A stretch of DNA of 64,000 nucleotides from Rhodocyclales bacterium (GTDB taxonomy: Bacteria; Pseudomonadota; Gammaproteobacteria; Burkholderiales; Rhodocyclaceae): positions 48,886-112,885 of the forward strand of contig JACRLX010000012.1 of the NCBI GenBank assembly GCA_016235165.1, written 5' to 3'. Positions 2,720 to 13,088 of this stretch are shown piece by piece (position 1 is the first letter of the stretch; each line of letters begins with the position of its first letter). The notes below the pieces were generated by a model. It searched no databases. It saw only the letters and a list, made by a program, of their open reading frames with translations, and had not been told where the DNA came from. Both the position numbers and the translations under genes were made by a program.

Positions 2720-3094
2720 TCAGAGCGTGGCCGCGTAGGCGTCGGCGGTGAGCAGGCTGTCGAGTTCGCCGGGGTTGGATGGCTTGACGCGGAACAGCCA
2801 ACTGGCATAGGCATCGGCATTCACCGATTCCGGCGCGTCGACCGCCGCCTGGTTGGCGGCGACGACTTCGCCCGAGACCGGGGAGTAGATGTCCGAGGCG
2901 GCCTTGACCGATTCGACCACCGCGCATTCCTCGCCGGCCTTGACTACGCGGCCGACCTCCGGCAGTTCGAGGAAGACGATGTCGCCCAGCGCGCCCTGCG
3001 CATGGTCGGTGATGCCGATGGTGACGGTACCGTCGGCTTCGAGCCTGGCCCATTCGTGGGAGGCGGCGTATTTCAGGTTGGCGGGGGTGTTCAT
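2720..3094 (-). CDS. gcvH: glycine cleavage system H protein
   Basis: 124 aa, [48 protein letters not shown]...[17 protein letters not shown] (lipoyl-lysine motif). Confidence 0.97.
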
Positions 3095-3229
3095 GACTGG
3101 CTCCAGATTAGAACAAGAAAGAGTGTTCGATTAAGGGTTGCAAATACGCGCGCTGTTTAGGTACACTTCGTTCCGAAGCTGTGAGTGAAACTCGGCCCCG
3201 CGCCGTGTGAACCTTCGGGGTTCCTATAC

Positions 3230-4105
3230 TCATGGCTTTTTCCTTTTGTCCTTTCCAAAGCGCGTCTCTGCGTTCAGTGGCCGTTGGGCATTGAAGAATG
3301 TGCCGTGGCTCGGTCCGAAGTGCAGGTCGTGGATTTCACCGATCTGCGGCCAGAGCAAATTCAGGAAACGCTCTTCGTGCTTCGGAACACCTGTTTCCGG
3401 GTCGCTGCGCGGTTCGAAGAAGCGCTGCATCGCCCAAAGAAAATAATCGACGGCTTGCAGGCAGGGGTCGCTTTTCGGTGTCGATACGCGAATGCGCCAC
3501 ACGTCCTTCCCGCCGCGGGCGAAACCGTAGTTGGAGGCAAAGTCGCGCTCGGCATGGTCGAGTGCCGTCCGCAGCGCCTCATTGCGGTCACTCTGGCCGC
3601 GTCGGGCGATGCAGACTTCATAGGCGTCCGCCAAACGGTGGAACTTGCCGAACAGGGAGCGCATCAGGCCATCGTACAGTTCATTATGCTGGTATCGGTA
3701 GTTCGGTTCGGTCTGATTGCGCCGCAATACGTCCTGAACCACCTGCTCCTTGTCACAGACGACAGTATGGAAGCGAAGCGCGTTGCCTTCGGCCACCAGC
3801 AGTTTGAATACTTCATAACGCACTTCTGGCACATCGTCCTTGGCATGGAACATTGCCGCGGTCTTGTCGCGCGCCGGGTCGAATGACGGCACGTTCGCAA
3901 AGTAGGGGTTGGCGAGCAGCGCGCGGCGCAGTTCGTTCAGGCGATGCCCGAGTCCGACCGGGTCATCCACTTCCAGTTTGCCGAGAATGAAAAAGCGCGA
4001 ACATCCAGGTGTGCCGACAATGGCGCGCCGACGATTGGCAAACAGGGTCGGATCGCCGGCCTCGTCGACGAAGATTTTCAGCACATCGTTGGCGGAATTC
4101 AGCAT
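3230..4105 (-). CDS. DUF3800 domain-containing protein
   Basis: LKIFVDEAGDPTLF motif of DUF3800; probable start MLNSANDV at 4105, overlapping the 3' end of the HNH gene by 7 nt. Confidence 0.75.
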   Translation of the reverse strand: MLNSANDVLKIFVDEAGDPTLFANRRRAIVGTPGCSRFFILGKLEVDDPVGLGHRLNELRRALLANPYFANVPSFDPARDKTAAMFHAKDDVPEVRYEVFKLLVAEGNALRFHTVVCDKEQVVQDVLRRNQTEPNYRYQHNELYDGLMRSLFGKFHRLADAYEVCIARRGQSDRNEALRTALDHAERDFASNYGFARGGKDVWRIRVSTPKSDPCLQAVDYFLWAMQRFFEPRSDPETGVPKHEERFLNLLWPQIGEIHDLHFGPSHGTFFNAQRPLNAETRFGKDKRKKP

Positions 4106-4824
4106 TTGGCCTCGGCACAGAACTCGGCGAAAGGCGATTCCAGACGTCCTGGCCCATCGAGAAAGTAGCTGGCTACATCCGGTTGAAATGGCTGCGTGCG
4201 CCACTCGTCGTAGCGACCACGTAGATCCTTCTGTTTCAGATTTCCGTGACGACACAATTCAAGACTGTCTTGCACTCTGGCCTTCAGATCATCAAGGCGG
4301 TTCTGTCGTGTTTCCTGCAAGGTATCGCGGTCGAGGGTAAGAATTTCGATGGTCTTGGCGGCGCGCGGGTCCACTTCGTTTAGGTCGGCGCGCCAGCGTG
4401 CTGTCAAGTTGCCGAACTCATCGATGAAAAAGAATGACCAGACATCTTCCTCCAGCGGATTGATGATCGGCTCTCCCGGTTCGGTTTCTGGTGGAAAGCG
4501 ATCGCTCTTGTTCAGGTTGCAGATGCCACAAGTCCACAGGAAGTTTTCCCACTTCATCGCCTCCAACGGGAAGACCGCCTTGGGACGGAAGTGTTCGACC
4601 TGGGATGCCTCGCTGCCGCTGCAATACATGCAGCGTTGTCCGACACCGCTCATTGCACCAAGACTCTCCACGACGGGCTTGAACCATTTCGCCTTGCGGG
4701 CATTCCCATAGCGCCGTTCTGCCTCGTCTTTGGGATCCTCAGCGTCGGCAATAGCCCTGGATTCCTTTTCCAGCTTATTGCGGGTCGCTTGCGGCAACGC
4801 GGCCCTGGGCGGGAGGCTGCGCAT
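4099..4824 (-). CDS. HNH endonuclease, TIGR02646/PtuB-like
   Basis: CMYCSGSEASQVEHFRPKAVFPLEAMKWENFLWTCGICNLNKSDRFP: HNH with two CxxC pairs; start overlaps the ATPase stop by 1 nt (TGATG). Confidence 0.8.
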   Translation of the reverse strand: MRSLPPRAALPQATRNKLEKESRAIADAEDPKDEAERRYGNARKAKWFKPVVESLGAMSGVGQRCMYCSGSEASQVEHFRPKAVFPLEAMKWENFLWTCGICNLNKSDRFPPETEPGEPIINPLEEDVWSFFFIDEFGNLTARWRADLNEVDPRAAKTIEILTLDRDTLQETRQNRLDDLKARVQDSLELCRHGNLKQKDLRGRYDEWRTQPFQPDVASYFLDGPGRLESPFAEFCAEAKC

Positions 4825-6164
4825 CAGATGGTCTCCGGCTCGCGCTCGAAGGCCAGCGCCATTTGCTGCCGTAGATGTTCAAATTCCTTCGTTTCTGTCA
4901 TGGTGAATCGCGCCCCAGCCTTGCTCTTGGCGTTCAGTCGCTTCCATTGTTCAATTCGCTGATTGGCCCAATGGGAACGCACCGACTTCAGTCCGAAGGC
5001 CGTTCCGAGCAAGGTCTTCTCGGCCTTGCCCAGCCGAAGTTTCTCGAACTCGTCCGAGTCGAGCGGACGTGGCTCCCGATTCAGATCGCTTTGAGAGGGC
5101 AACACAAATACGCCGTTAGGGTCGGCAGCCTGTGCCACTAGCGGGCTATGGGTTGTCACCAGAAACTGCACATTGGGGAAATGCAGCTTGAGCCATTCCG
5201 GGATATCCCGCTGCCAAGCCGGGTGAAGATGGGCCTCGATTTCGTCGATCAGAACCACGCCGGGCCGCAGCACAATAGGTCTTCCCTTGCTATCTGTCCC
5301 GAACAACCCGTCTATGCCATACACCTCGAACATGCCATGCACCAAATCCAGCACGGTGGCGTAGATGCTGCGACAGCCGTCGCTGATGTCGCGCATGGGC
5401 AGTTCCAGCTTGTTCCTGTCCTCGATAAATACTTGATCCACTGTAGTGCGGCTGATTTTCATTCCATGAGGCAATAGATCGTCGCTCAATAGCGCGGTAA
5501 CGCCATCGATGAGTTGCTTTAGTTCAGTGCTTGGCGACTTCAGGAGTTGTGATTCCAGCCAACGCGAGTGATTGGTCTTCAACCAAGCCTCGCTCTCACT
5601 TAGCGCCGCATCTTCCCGAAACAAGGTGACAAAGCGACTTACCACGCCGCCCCTGGCAGCCAACATGCCTGCCTGCGTCGAGTCGCCGGACAAGCGGCGC
5701 ATGGGACCGTAGCCGGCACAGAACCAGCCTGGGGCATTCGGATTCCAAGGGCCGCGTTGAGCCGAGCTTGTCCGCTTGTTTTTGGGCAACGGGGCTGCCC
5801 GGAAAATTGGAATTTCCTCCCCCTTCTCCAATTGCCAGCGTACTTCGGCATCAAATGCCCCTCCTGGGGGCTTCCCACCGGGTTTGAATTTATCGTGGGT
5901 CTGATCCCAATCAACCTGAGTCATTGCTTTTGCCCGGTGCTCATTTCGTGCGAGCCATCCAGCAGGCGCTCTGCCAATCAACTCGTATCCTGCGTCGGGC
6001 CCCATCATCGCTAGTGCAATGCTTTTCAGTAGGGTGGATTTTCCCGATGCATTGCCTCCCACGAACACTGTCCAGCCTGCATAGCTGCTGTCCTCGCGCT
6101 GGAAGTCAAAATGCAAATCTGCAAAGCCCTTGAGGTTTTCCAGAGTGATGGATTTAACGTACAT
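4824..6164 (-). CDS. AAA family ATPase (AAA_15/AAA_21, PtuA-like)
   Basis: Walker A GGNASGKSTLLK, Walker B VVLIDEIEAHLHPAWQ, then FLVTTHSPLVAQ. Confidence 0.82.
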   Translation of the reverse strand: MYVKSITLENLKGFADLHFDFQREDSSYAGWTVFVGGNASGKSTLLKSIALAMMGPDAGYELIGRAPAGWLARNEHRAKAMTQVDWDQTHDKFKPGGKPPGGAFDAEVRWQLEKGEEIPIFRAAPLPKNKRTSSAQRGPWNPNAPGWFCAGYGPMRRLSGDSTQAGMLAARGGVVSRFVTLFREDAALSESEAWLKTNHSRWLESQLLKSPSTELKQLIDGVTALLSDDLLPHGMKISRTTVDQVFIEDRNKLELPMRDISDGCRSIYATVLDLVHGMFEVYGIDGLFGTDSKGRPIVLRPGVVLIDEIEAHLHPAWQRDIPEWLKLHFPNVQFLVTTHSPLVAQAADPNGVFVLPSQSDLNREPRPLDSDEFEKLRLGKAEKTLLGTAFGLKSVRSHWANQRIEQWKRLNAKSKAGARFTMTETKEFEHLRQQMALAFEREPETI

Positions 6165-6182
6165 GGCGGATTCCTCGTTGAT

Positions 6183-6380
6183 TCATGCGACCGTGGCGGT
6201 GGTGTCTTGGGCTGCCTGAAAGGCCCCTGGCCAACCTCCGTGGGTTTCGATGATTTGATCGATCTCCGCCATCACGCGGATGGATTTGTTGAGGGCGACG
6301 ACGATGCGCTGGTAGGTGCGAACTTTCCAGTCGGCGTCGATGTTGTCGACGATGAAGAGGTCGGAGGCCTGCTTGCTCAT
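6183..6380 (-). CDS. small hypothetical protein (65 aa) at the head of the defence-like cassette; possible gene remnant
   Basis: MSKQASDLFIVDNIDADWKVRTY...; first about 20 residues resemble, from memory, the N-terminus of PLD/SNF2-type helicases; then unrelated sequence. Confidence 0.45.
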   Translation of the reverse strand: MSKQASDLFIVDNIDADWKVRTYQRIVVALNKSIRVMAEIDQIIETHGGWPGAFQAAQDTTATVA

Positions 6381-6426: not shown

Positions 6427-7602
6427 TCAGAGCAGCGGCTTGCCGTTGCGGACGAATACGGGTTTGACGACCCTCGCCCTGAGGCGCTTGCCACGGACTT
6501 CGACTTCGACTTCGCTGCCGATGGCGACACCCTGCGGCAGGCGGGCGAGGGCGATGGATTTTTCGAGGGTCGGGGAAAAGCTGCCGCTGGTGGTCTCGCC
6601 TTCGCCCAGCGGGGTGATGACTTTCTGGTGGGCGCGCAGCACGCCGCGGTCGAGCAGCAGCAGGCCCTGGAACTGGTTGCGCGGCGGGAGTGCATCGGCA
6701 CCCTCGATCGCGGCCTTGCCGACGAAATCGCGGCTGGCGTCCTTGAGGTCTACGGTCCATTTGAGGCCGGCCTCGTAGGGCGAGATGTTCTCGTCCATGT
6801 CCTGGCCGTAGAGGTTCATGCCGGCTTCGAGGCGCAGCGTGTCGCGTGCGCCCAGGCCGCAGGGCTGGATGCCGGCGCCGCGCAGCTGGTACCAGACCAG
6901 GGCGGCCTCGCCGGCGGGCAGGGTGATTTCGAAACCATCCTCGCCGGTGTAGCCGGTGCGCGCGACCAGCCAGTCGGCCTCGTTGAAGCGAACTTCGGCG
7001 GCCTGGAACACGCCCAGGGCTTCGGTGGCGGCACGCAGTTCGGGGAAGGCCTTCCAGAAGCGCTCGCGCGCCTGCGGGCCCTGCACCGCGATCATGGCCA
7101 CGGCATCGACGCCGCTGTGGCGGCGTTCGTGGGCGCCTGAACCCTGGGCGGCGATGATGGCCACGGCGTCGCTGCCGCGGCGGCGACGCACTTTCAGCTT
7201 GGCATCGAAATGGGTCAGCACGCCGCGCATCCAGGTGACATCCTTTTCCGTGGTGCCGGCATTGACCACGATGCGGTAGCGCTCGGGGCCGAGGTAATAC
7301 ACGATCAGGTCGTCGATTACGCCGCCGCCCTCGTCGAGCATGCAGGAATACAGCGCCTTGCCCGGCACGGTCAGCTTGGCGACGTCGTTGGCCAGCAGTT
7401 TGCGCAGGTAGTCGCGGGCGCCGGGGCCGACGAGGTCCAGCGCGCACATGTGGGAGACGTCGAACATGCCGGCCTCGCGGCGCACGGCATGGTGCTCCTC
7501 GATCTGGGAGCCGTAATGGATGGGCATTTCCCAGCCGGAGAAATCGACCATCCTGGCGCCGGCGGCGAGATGGGAGTCGTAGAGCGGGGTGCGTAGCGGC
7601 AT
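6427..7602 (-). CDS. gcvT: glycine cleavage system aminomethyltransferase T protein
   Basis: MPLRTPLYDSHLAAGARMVDFSGWEMPIHYGSQIEEHHAVR...; preceded by glycine riboswitch. Confidence 0.96.
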   Translation of the reverse strand: MPLRTPLYDSHLAAGARMVDFSGWEMPIHYGSQIEEHHAVRREAGMFDVSHMCALDLVGPGARDYLRKLLANDVAKLTVPGKALYSCMLDEGGGVIDDLIVYYLGPERYRIVVNAGTTEKDVTWMRGVLTHFDAKLKVRRRRGSDAVAIIAAQGSGAHERRHSGVDAVAMIAVQGPQARERFWKAFPELRAATEALGVFQAAEVRFNEADWLVARTGYTGEDGFEITLPAGEAALVWYQLRGAGIQPCGLGARDTLRLEAGMNLYGQDMDENISPYEAGLKWTVDLKDASRDFVGKAAIEGADALPPRNQFQGLLLLDRGVLRAHQKVITPLGEGETTSGSFSPTLEKSIALARLPQGVAIGSEVEVEVRGKRLRARVVKPVFVRNGKPLL

Positions 7603-7654
7603 GGCGATCCTTGGACTGGCGGCGACAAGAAGGCGACGGGATACCGTCACATCC

Positions 7655-7830
7655 CCATCTGTCCTTGGCGCCTGAGAGATTTACTCCGTCGGCGGGCAGG
7701 CTTCACGCAAGCATGAGCTGCCGCTCTCCAGATTTGTGCTGCGTCGCCGGTCCGTTTGCCTGAGCGGTTCCTGGGGGTTGCGCCTTCGGCGGTGGCTGGG
7801 AAGCTGCCACGCTCTCCCGACGACCGGGGC
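7655..7830 (-). promoter_or_regulatory. tandem (two-aptamer) glycine riboswitch upstream of gcvT
   Basis: Minus strand reads GTCGGGAGAGCGTGGCAG...CGAAGGCGCAACCCCCAGGAACCGCTCAGGCAAACGGACCGGCGAC, then ATCTGGAGAGCGGCAG...ACGGAGTAAATCTCTCAGGCGCCAAGGACAGATGGGG: both aptamers have the conserved GGAGAG and CTCAGGC-CAAGGAC(A) elements. Confidence 0.92.
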
Positions 7831-10736: not shown

Positions 10737-13088
10737 ATGAGCGTCGACACTTCCGCCGACCAAAGGCTGGCAGGACAGCGTTCGCTCCATCTGCTGCTGT
10801 TGCTGTTCGCGGTGATGCTTCTCGCCGTCTTTGGCGGCGAACTGCTGGTCACCTACCTGCTGGAACGCCTGTTGCCGGTGGGGGTGAACGAATGGACCCG
10901 GATCCTGCTCGATGCCGGACTGCTGGCGTTGATCGTTTCCGCCGTGGTCCTGCCCTTCATGCTGCGCTTGCGGCGACTGCATCTGCGCCAGGCGCGCAAT
11001 GCCCGGCGCCTGCAATACACGCTCGACCAACATGCCATCGTCAGCATTGCCGACGCCAGCGAGCAGCGTCAGCTGCAGCAGCATCTGCTCGACGCCAGGG
11101 ACGCCGCCGAAAAGGCGGCCCGCCTCAAGAGCGATTTTCTGTCCACCATGAGCCACGAGATACGCACCCCGCTCAACGGCGTGATCGGCATGACCGACTT
11201 GCTGCTCGATACCCGGCTCGATTCCGAACAGGCGGAATTCGCGCGCATCATCAAGAGCTCGGCGGACAGCCTGATGACCATCGTCAGCGACATCCTCGAT
11301 TTCTCCAAGATCGAGGCTGGCCGCCTTGTCATCGAAGCCACCGATTTTTCGCTGCGGCAAACCGTCGAAAGTGCACTCGACGTGTTTTCGGGCAAGCGCG
11401 CCGATGGCAGCCTGCTGCTTTCCAGCTTCATCGCCCCGGATCTGCCCGATCACCTGATCGGCGACCCGACCCGTGTGCGCCAGATCCTGCTGAACTTCCT
11501 TTCCAATGCGATCAAGTTCACCGAGCGGGGCAATGTGACGGTCAGCGCGCTGGCGGCGGAAAGCGGATCGGACGCGGATGGACGGATCGTGCTGCGGCTG
11601 GCGGTCAGCGATACCGGCATCGGCATCAGCGCGCAGGACCAGGCCCGGCTGTTCCTGCCATTCTCCCAGACCGACAGTTCGACCACGCGCAAGTATGGCG
11701 GCACCGGGCTCGGCCTGTCGATTACCAGGCGTCTCGCCGAAGCCATGGGCGGACATGCCGGGGTAGCGAGCGAGCCGGGCAAGGGATCGACCTTCTGGGT
11801 CGAACTGCCGTTTGCCGTCGGCGAGGAGAAGCGGGCGGTACCCGATCCCGCGCGCTTGCTGCGCGGAAGGCGCGTGATCCTCGCCGGTGACATCCATGGC
11901 GCCGCCCCGATTTGGCGAGGCTATTTGCAGGCCTGGGGGGTCGAAACGGAATCCGTGGTCGGCCTCGCCGAACTGGAACAGCGCTTCGTTGCCGCCACCG
12001 ATGCCCGGATTCCCTACGACCTGGTGCTGGTGGCGCCTCCCCTGCGCGACGCCACCCTGCCCGCTGCGATAGCCGCGATGCACGGCGATGGCTTCGCAGT
12101 GCCGATGATCTGCTGCCAGCCGGTCTCGCGCCGCGGCGAGCGGCGGGCGCTCGATCGCCAGGGCGCGCGCGTGCTGGTCGGACCCTTGCGCCAATCCGCC
12201 CTCTATCACGCTTTGGCGGCTGAACTGGATGGCGCCACGTCACCTCGCGCGCGCCGCGCCGAGGATGTGGATGTCATCAAGGCGAAGGCGTTTTCCCGCG
12301 GCAGGGGGCAACGCGTGCTGCTGGCCGAGGACAACGCGGTGAATCAGAGGGTTGCCGTGCATATGCTGGAACGCCTCGACTATCTGGTCGATGTCGTTGC
12401 CAGCGGCGCCGAGGCGGTGGCCGCCGCTGCCAGCGGTCGCTATCGACTGGTCTTGATGGATTGCCAAATGCCCGAAATGGACGGCTTCGAAGCTGCCCGC
12501 GCGATTCGCGCCGCCGAAGCGGGCAGCGATCGACATTTGCCTATCGTCGCCATGACCGCCAACGCCCCGCAGGGCGATCGCGAGCGCTGCCTGGCCGCCG
12601 GCATGGACGACTACCTGTCCAAGCCGGTCGATGCCGCGCAGCTTGCTACCACCCTGGCGGCACGCCTGATGTTTCGGTCGCCGCTGGCGCCCGGCCTTGG
12701 CGCGCTCCCGCAAGCGGAGCCGGCAATCGCGGACGAAACTCCGGCCGACCCCATCGACTTCGCACGCCTGGACGAAATTTTCGGCGACGACCAGGACGCT
12801 ATCGAGCAATTGCTCTCGGCGCTGGCAGAGACCATGGCGAGATCGCAGCGGCGCCTTGGCGAGGCGATGCGGACTGGTGCCGCCGTGCCGGCCACGCTTG
12901 CCCACGAGTTGCGCGGATTGGCCCACAACGTGGGCGCCGAGCGTTTGGCGGAGGTGGCCAGTCGGCTCGAAGCCAGTCTTGCCACCGATGACGAAATGCT
13001 TTCCGCCGCCCTGGTTCCCGACCTGATGGCGGAATGCCAGCGCAGCATTGACTTCATTGCCAGGCGCGGCGTGCGCCAGAAAGTGTGA
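10737..13088 (+). CDS. membrane hybrid sensor histidine kinase with REC and C-terminal Hpt
   Basis: [54 protein letters not shown]...[12 protein letters not shown]-terminal [16 protein letters not shown] (Hpt). Confidence 0.9.

Follow-up and report, generated by a model that had tools for sequence, protein, structure and literature searches.

A Septu-like PtuAB pair, a DUF3800 gene and a predicted structured RNA in the apparent remains of a restriction-modification operon of a Rhodocyclales bacterium

Between gcvT and gcvH of a Rhodocyclales bacterium lies a gene block which resembles several described systems. It is part of the window, a stretch of 64,000 nucleotides (nt) (GCA_016235165.1, contig JACRLX010000012.1, positions 48,886-112,885 of the forward strand). 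Septu and the retron Ec78/Eco7 possess PtuAB, a Walker ATPase gene overlapping an HNH gene, and PtuAB of retron Eco7 causes degradation of tRNA-Tyr (PMC11555353). PrrC is a nuclease within the operon of the restriction-modification (R-M) system EcoprrI (PMC3874165). In type III toxin-antitoxin systems (ToxIN) a nuclease is combined with a structured RNA, and phages with RNA copies exist, as phage PhiTE carries a pseudo-ToxI RNA (PMC3475682). DUF3800 (DUF, domain of unknown function) denotes a widespread protein family, tied to CRISPR types and orphan RNAs. It was published as an RNase H fold and earlier linked to putative non-coding RNAs (PMC10910872). DUF3800 proteins accompany Cas12a2 and VI-F CRISPR loci (PMC10910872, PMC12669027) and are linked to the CRISPR types V-A2 and VI-F (PMC12669027). 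Rfam 15 holds DUF3800-linked families, e.g. RF02969 (DUF3800-I) and RF02968 (DUF3800-IX) (PMC11701678).

A preliminary description interpreted the block as a Septu variant of PtuA, PtuB and a DUF3800 protein, in which all three proteins are needed. This interpretation is partly supported by our comparisons. The ATPase and the HNH protein form a PtuAB-like pair, whereas the constant partner of DUF3800 appears to be a structured RNA and not PtuAB. We propose, with a probability of about 0.48, that the cassette arose by deletion from a composite anti-phage operon, in which an RNA-held DUF3800 nuclease toxin and PtuAB serve as fail-safes of an R-M system and for which phage copies of the RNA serve as antidote. 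The elements of the cassette are:

6183-6380, minus strand: open reading frame (ORF) of 65 amino acids, in-frame deletion scar of a helicase start and a methylase end
4824-6164, minus strand: PtuA-like AAA/ABC ATPase, 446 amino acids, catalytic motifs intact, PADLOC PtuA1
4099-4824, minus strand: PtuB-like HNH protein, 241 amino acids, gene overlapping the ATPase gene by 1 nt
3230-4105, minus strand: DUF3800 protein, 291 amino acids, ATG start, 7-nt overlap with the HNH gene
3176-3238, plus strand: predicted structured RNA, three-way junction (P1, P2, P3), covariance-model match at 3173-3242
3138-3167, plus strand: putative RNA promoter TTGCAA-18 nt-TACACT, 8/12 matches
3235-3243, plus strand: U-run after P1, GCTTTTTCC, a terminator-like RNA end

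The four minus-strand ORFs agree in coordinates and overlaps with the preliminary description. This description omits the probable RNA gene on the plus strand at about 3176-3238. A conserved element was found at the DUF3800 3' end in nearly every locus. It is about 65 nt long, is encoded on the opposite strand, runs convergent with DUF3800 and overlaps the 3' end of this gene. The alignment of 36 sequences resulted in a three-way junction. On this structure 91.3% of the cells were paired, compared to 74.9 ± 1.1% in shuffled alignments and at most 43% in slid versions. The covariation score was 0.491 versus 0.198 ± 0.015 in the shuffles; relatedness is preserved in the slid controls, not in the shuffles. 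Compensatory changes above the controls, as expected for a structured non-coding RNA, were thus detected, and they occur together with conserved unpaired bases across phyla. With the covariance model R1 the RNA was recognized at 51 of the 54 DUF3800 loci in bacterial genomes, 45 of them with E<1e-9. This model was built from 36 of the same locus sequences, including the window; hence, independent support comes from the loci outside the model and from the searches that started with the RNA. The RNA is present once in the genome of the window, in 6/399 genomes of the family and in 1/249 genomes of the phylum, which is the window's own. Overall, the comparisons give good support for the RNA gene.

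The strand of the RNA was deduced from three signals. Read on the DUF3800 strand, the mismatched pairs comprise 26 A-C and 7 G-U, and read antisense 26 G-U and 7 A-C (p=0.0013, the pair beside the junction being left out). After thinning of similar rows the asymmetry was 18 to 6 (p=0.02). Just upstream of the antisense RNA a sigma-70-like promoter was detected with a mean best score of 8.88/12, compared to 7.01 ± 0.11 in shuffled sequences. In most loci the distance of its -10 element is almost constant; the element ends about 7 nt ahead of P1, and two loci (L039 and L047) possess TTGACA-17-TATAAT. A U-run directly after P1 was present in 32/50 loci and in 0/50 shuffled controls. Like the covariation, these signals extend over many phyla. 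Thus, the mismatch asymmetry, the promoter and the U-run indicate the strand opposite to DUF3800, which is the plus strand of the window, where P1 forms a continuous helix and the RNA structure is intact. Both the G-U/A-C asymmetry and the direction of the promoter speak against an RNA on the DUF3800 strand, which was therefore rejected. A mobile unit with a sharp end at CACAGCTT was also considered and rejected; this point is the end of stem P1, with a weakly conserved promoter beyond it. Locus L034 contains a tandem pair of RNA copies (10846-10925 and 10989-11070) behind one DUF3800 gene.

The RNA resembles the DUF3800 motifs of Rfam as a structured RNA linked to DUF3800 genes (PMC11701678, PMC10910872). 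A search of Rfam 15 gave no credible match for the window up to E=10 and for five divergent loci up to E=1, and for DUF3800-I (RF02969) no match was detected in 249 genomes or the controls. The difference to the known motifs is based on the covariance search; the window RNA is encoded antisense and convergent. The locus seems to define a new RNA partner of DUF3800, with strand, likely promoter and ends.

The protein partner was assigned to DUF3800 (Pfam PF12686) with E=1.3e-6, above the cut-off. Its acidic motifs DEAGD (14-18) and FHAKDD (86-91) as well as D145 and D220 are intact, and the invariant residues among 44 homologues include D14, E15, H87, K89, D90, D91, D145 and D220. An AlphaFold2 model from the 44-sequence alignment reached a mean pLDDT of 86.3. 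In a fold search against the PDB, RNase HII was the best match (E 1.7e-4) with modest TM-scores of about 0.3-0.5, followed by weak matches to Argonaute PIWI domains. The RNase H-like fold assumed beforehand agrees with this predicted model. A tblastn search of plasmids with the window DUF3800 gave no matches. Judged from the name of the PADLOC model DUF3800_VII, the family is presumably linked to type VII retrons as well.

The ATPase and HNH genes had been assigned to PtuA and PtuB, and this assignment holds. With PADLOC the pair was matched by PtuA1 (PDLC00269, E=1e-125) and PtuB1 (E=5e-31). The ATPase, with the solved PtuA relatives 8ee4, 9kjx and 9e8z, has Walker A (GGNASGKST, amino acids 36-44) and Walker B (VVLIDEIEAHLHP, 303-315). 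The HNH protein contains CMYC (65-68), VEHFRPK (76-82) and CGICNLNK (99-106). Both features of Septu, a PtuA-family ATPase with intact Walker motifs and an adjoining PtuB HNH protein with CxxC...H...CxxC, are hence found. The HNH protein matched NCBIfam PtuB and TIGR02646 below the cut-off, and both proteins were below the NCBIfam equivalog cut-offs for PtuA/PtuB of retron Ec78. According to the ORF list and a Pfam search no reverse transcriptase is encoded between gcvT and gcvH, so that the block does not qualify as Retron I-A (Ec78), which comprises reverse transcriptase and msr-msd RNA. In contrast to the known Septu and retron pairs, the window pair is located in the remains of an R-M operon together with DUF3800 and the RNA.

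These remains are recognizable from the 65-amino-acid ORF, which had been listed as the first ORF of the series. It gave no family matches in profile searches with Pfam, PADLOC and NCBIfam. Instead of a gene it is a fusion scar, in which about 22 first codons of a PLD-SNF2 helicase are joined in frame to about 43 last codons of a type-ISP methylase. Amino acids 1-22 match the N-terminus of a 1048-amino-acid helicase (MATNASDLFIVDNGDADWKV) and amino acids 23-62 are 70% identical to the C-terminus of a 1116-amino-acid methylase, both of genome G397 from the same bacterial family; the junction lies within a short CTACC microhomology. G397 (L013, also L026) has this PLD-SNF2 helicase at the same gcvT-gcvH site, followed by the methylase, which contains a type ISP specificity domain, and by a DUF3800 protein sharing 76% identity with the window protein; PtuAB is absent. 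In a Hydrogenophilales genome (L019) five genes were found in a row, namely helicase, methylase, PtuA (88%), PtuB (70%) and DUF3800 (78%). Considering the scar and this complete operon, the trio represents the distal part of an operon of five genes. Comparison thus shows a parent layout of PLD-SNF2 helicase, type-ISP methylase/specificity protein, PtuA, PtuB and DUF3800 with the convergent RNA. It likewise shows that one internal deletion took helicase and methylase from the window, whereas PtuAB, DUF3800 and the RNA were left behind, apparently intact. What looks like a neat defence trio can therefore be the stump of a larger operon, and naming a cluster from a single genome can mislead.

The parent operon shares the Type_ISP_C specificity domain and an Eco57I/N6 methylase with type ISP and type IIG R-M enzymes. 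It differs by the split of PLD-SNF2 helicase and methylase into two genes, both of which the window has lost. In L020 only 79 helicase codons are kept, followed by a type I methylase and a restriction subunit. A PLD domain fused to a methylase specificity domain, considered as a working enzyme in L031 and L038, was rejected; the pieces are in different frames and probably represent decay. In L024 (227-2704) two genes without any Pfam match occupy the slot between the methylase end and DUF3800. Thus, other unknown effectors may use this slot.

R-M genes were found beside about 24 of 53 DUF3800 loci; the seeds were drawn from the same loci, and several have too little flanking DNA to judge. Many of the loci are from metagenome-assembled genomes. 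According to Pfam the neighbours belong to type I (N6_Mtase/HsdM_N, Methylase_S, HSDR_N), to type III-like systems (N6_N4_Mtase, ResIII with RE_endonuc) and to type ISP/IIG. DUF3800 separates hsdM from hsdS in L043, hsdS from hsdR in L055 and a methylase gene from a res gene in L045; the arrangements include hsdM-DUF3800-hsdS, hsdM-hsdS-DUF3800-hsdR and mod-DUF3800-res. A nuclease gene nested in an R-M operon is known from EcoprrI/PrrC (PMC3874165). Such nesting is seen in the relatives, and for the window only via the fusion scar. Different from PrrC, DUF3800 has a predicted RNase H-like fold, an RNA partner and several R-M types as neighbours, and the window has lost its R-M core. In the literature DUF3800 and restriction-modification were mentioned together only on another subject; most subscription papers are not included, so this is weak evidence of novelty.

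Furthermore, copies of the RNA were identified in phages. A search of IMG/VR with the RNA core pattern, made independently of DUF3800, resulted in ten RNA loci, all confirmed by the covariance model (E 5e-17 to 3e-7). In L126 a DUF3800 gene is located about 100 nt ahead of the RNA (1.2e-14). By a second pattern search L135 with DUF3800 (1e-95) and L134 without DUF3800 in the DNA examined were added. L129, with the RNA at the contig end, cannot be judged in this respect. For L125, L127, L128, L130, L131 and L132 no DUF3800 match was obtained anywhere in the 8-60 kb records, and no remnant was found beside the RNA; the control of this search was positive in 5/14 genomes. The RNA stands alone in these six, in L134 and in L124/L133. 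Hosts and hallmark genes were checked for some viral contigs only; L127 and L131 contain terminase genes, and L131 also a portal gene. In the small viral contigs L124 (2537-2605) and L133 (2701-2769) the RNA is 177 nt away from an RtcB RNA ligase gene. In L130 (3133-3213) it is placed directly ahead of type I hsdM and hsdS. The promoters of standalone viral RNAs reached 11/12 in L129 and L132 and 10/12 in L127, and L134 has TTGACA-17-TATACT. Several of these copies hence keep a good promoter, as expected if they are expressed.

The viral copies without DUF3800 suggest that the RNA keeps the DUF3800 nuclease in check, and they are consistent with an RNA neutralising a toxic nuclease. DUF3800 would be an RNase H-fold nuclease toxin, kept inactive by an RNA made from its own promoter. 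Once a phage shuts down transcription of its host or inactivates the R-M system, the RNA level would fall, DUF3800 would act and the infection would be halted. PtuAB would be a second effector, acting separately. Together, PtuAB and DUF3800-RNA could serve as fail-safes of the R-M system, as PrrC inside EcoprrI, and in some phages the solitary RNA may be an antidote comparable to the pseudo-ToxI of PhiTE. The more general form of this proposal is put forward somewhat more tentatively, namely that DUF3800 and the antisense-encoded three-way-junction RNA are a nuclease toxin under RNA control, recurrently incorporated in R-M operons as a fail-safe, with the phage RNA copies as antidote. The natural phage-borne copies help to make the function of DUF3800 and the question of an RNA off-switch directly testable.

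Several observations weigh against the proposed fail-safe and antidote. Known type III antitoxins are encoded on the toxin strand, upstream and as tandem repeats, whereas the window RNA is a single copy downstream on the opposite strand, and its partner has a predicted RNase H fold and not the ToxN fold. The six viral records without DUF3800 may be fragments, no RNA of the window's sequence subtype was detected among the viral RNAs found, and the standalone viral RNAs could serve another purpose. A complete helicase-methylase pair occurs without DUF3800 and without the RNA in L121, which makes DUF3800 an accessory. About half of the DUF3800 loci had no R-M gene in the DNA examined; thus, a role as R-M guard is not general. 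In the window the R-M core is gone, and nothing would remain for a guard to protect. The RNA promoter of the window is weak (8/12) compared to strong ones in many relatives, and a generic scan (promoters at 9/12; terminators) reported neither promoter nor terminator of this RNA.

Among the other explanations the least improbable, although we regard it as unlikely, is an active effector ribonucleoprotein, in which the RNA serves DUF3800 as cofactor or for recognition and does not inhibit it. A conserved structured RNA closely paired with a protein of nuclease fold, the PIWI domains among the weak fold matches and the DUF3800 proteins at Cas12a2 and VI-F loci (PMC10910872, PMC12669027) would fit. 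The predicted transcript from P1 to the U-run, on the other hand, has almost no unpaired ends and no obvious guide segment, and phages with the RNA alone would gain nothing unless it also acts as decoy. A variable guide segment as in OMEGA/TnpB-like RNAs was not found; apart from the P2 loop the RNA leaves no space for a guide, and a TnpB-like guide RNA was ruled out for this reason. The inhibitor is thus preferred over a guide or cofactor, because of the missing room for a guide and the phages carrying the RNA without the protein.

The placement of the units could also reflect a selfish mobile module of DUF3800 and RNA, spreading into operon spacers with defence genes as passengers. We consider this slightly less probable than the ribonucleoprotein. 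The gcvT-gcvH spacer, about 12-30 nt long in most genomes of the same genus with a readable spacer, is occupied in the window, in G397, by a solo RNA in G196 and, in the congeneric genome G404, by another DUF3800 gene standing alone; further units occur after ugd and in the dapC-dapD interval. However, neither a transposase nor terminal repeats nor a target duplication were seen, the left boundary is fixed by the helicase gene and not by DUF3800, and the recurrent placement within R-M operons suggests a function. The spacer appears to be a DUF3800 hotspot. In G404 (L099) it comprises 902 nt with the lone DUF3800, followed by a repeated GGGTAGTCCCA, and gave no match to the RNA model or Rfam. 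In G196, which belongs to another genus, the solo RNA lies at 7960-8029 of L078 between gcvT and gcvH without DUF3800.

A three-protein Septu variant, with PtuA, PtuB and DUF3800 in one complex and all of them required, appears improbable. The trio does recur in other genomes, as the preliminary description had asked, and the PtuA proteins involved belong to two lineages distant from each other. Besides the window, four loci (L018-L021) have PtuAB ahead of DUF3800. Translational overlap recurs in the window, L018 and L019; in G366 (L018, where the contig ends inside PtuA) the trio is found at another site beside ABC-transporter genes, and in L020 and L021 the slot ahead of DUF3800 is taken by a distantly related PtuAB pair (29%). 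All three genes are under purifying selection, judged from dN/dS (the ratio of nonsynonymous to synonymous substitution rates) against relatives. Nevertheless, about 49 of the 54 related DUF3800 loci have no PtuAB match, and in G397, at the same gcv position, helicase and methylase are followed by DUF3800 without PtuAB. Conversely, 8/8 PtuA relatives at 30-42% identity possess PtuB, but neither DUF3800 nor a confident RNA match. Therefore, PtuAB and DUF3800 are regarded as separate accessory modules, and the claim of a third Septu subunit was not borne out; the gene distribution gives no support for a requirement of all three proteins. Literature joining Septu and DUF3800 was not found, which is weak evidence of novelty, as most subscription papers are not included.

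About equally improbable is an RNA without protein partner which acts as cis element only and exerts antisense control or causes termination at the DUF3800 3' end. Its overlap with this 3' end, together with the promoter and U-run features, would be explained. Conserved unpaired bases and compensatory changes across phyla exceed the needs of antisense pairing, and the RNA stands alone in phages and between gcvT and gcvH of G196. Least probable is a decaying remnant without function, in spite of the deleted helicase and methylase and of degenerate DUF3800 copies in the relatives G028 and G287, since neither PtuA nor PtuB nor DUF3800 is truncated, all three retain their catalytic motifs and show low pairwise dN/dS, and the RNA structure is intact.

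The pairwise dN/dS against relatives was 0.065-0.14 where computable. Thus, the cassette genes are under selection and are not chance ORFs. The GC content of the cassette is 56-60%, compared to about 68% in the flanks. The host features around it are:

7649-7791, minus strand: glycine riboswitch (Rfam RF00504), E=9e-9 (full aptamer) and 0.026 (partial)
6427-7650, minus strand: gcvT, host gene upstream of the cassette
2720-3094, minus strand: gcvH, host gene downstream of the cassette
1-2820: gcvP, downstream after gcvH, open at the window edge

The riboswitch upstream of gcvT consists of one full aptamer above the threshold and a second partial one. As it precedes gcvT, the inserted defence genes are probably transcribed under a glycine-responsive switch. 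Among the relatives, G028 has an N-terminally truncated DUF3800 with an intact RNA (L014, 6579-7394), and in G287 a decayed methylase-DUF3800 fusion is located beside lexA (L016, 7039-7752).

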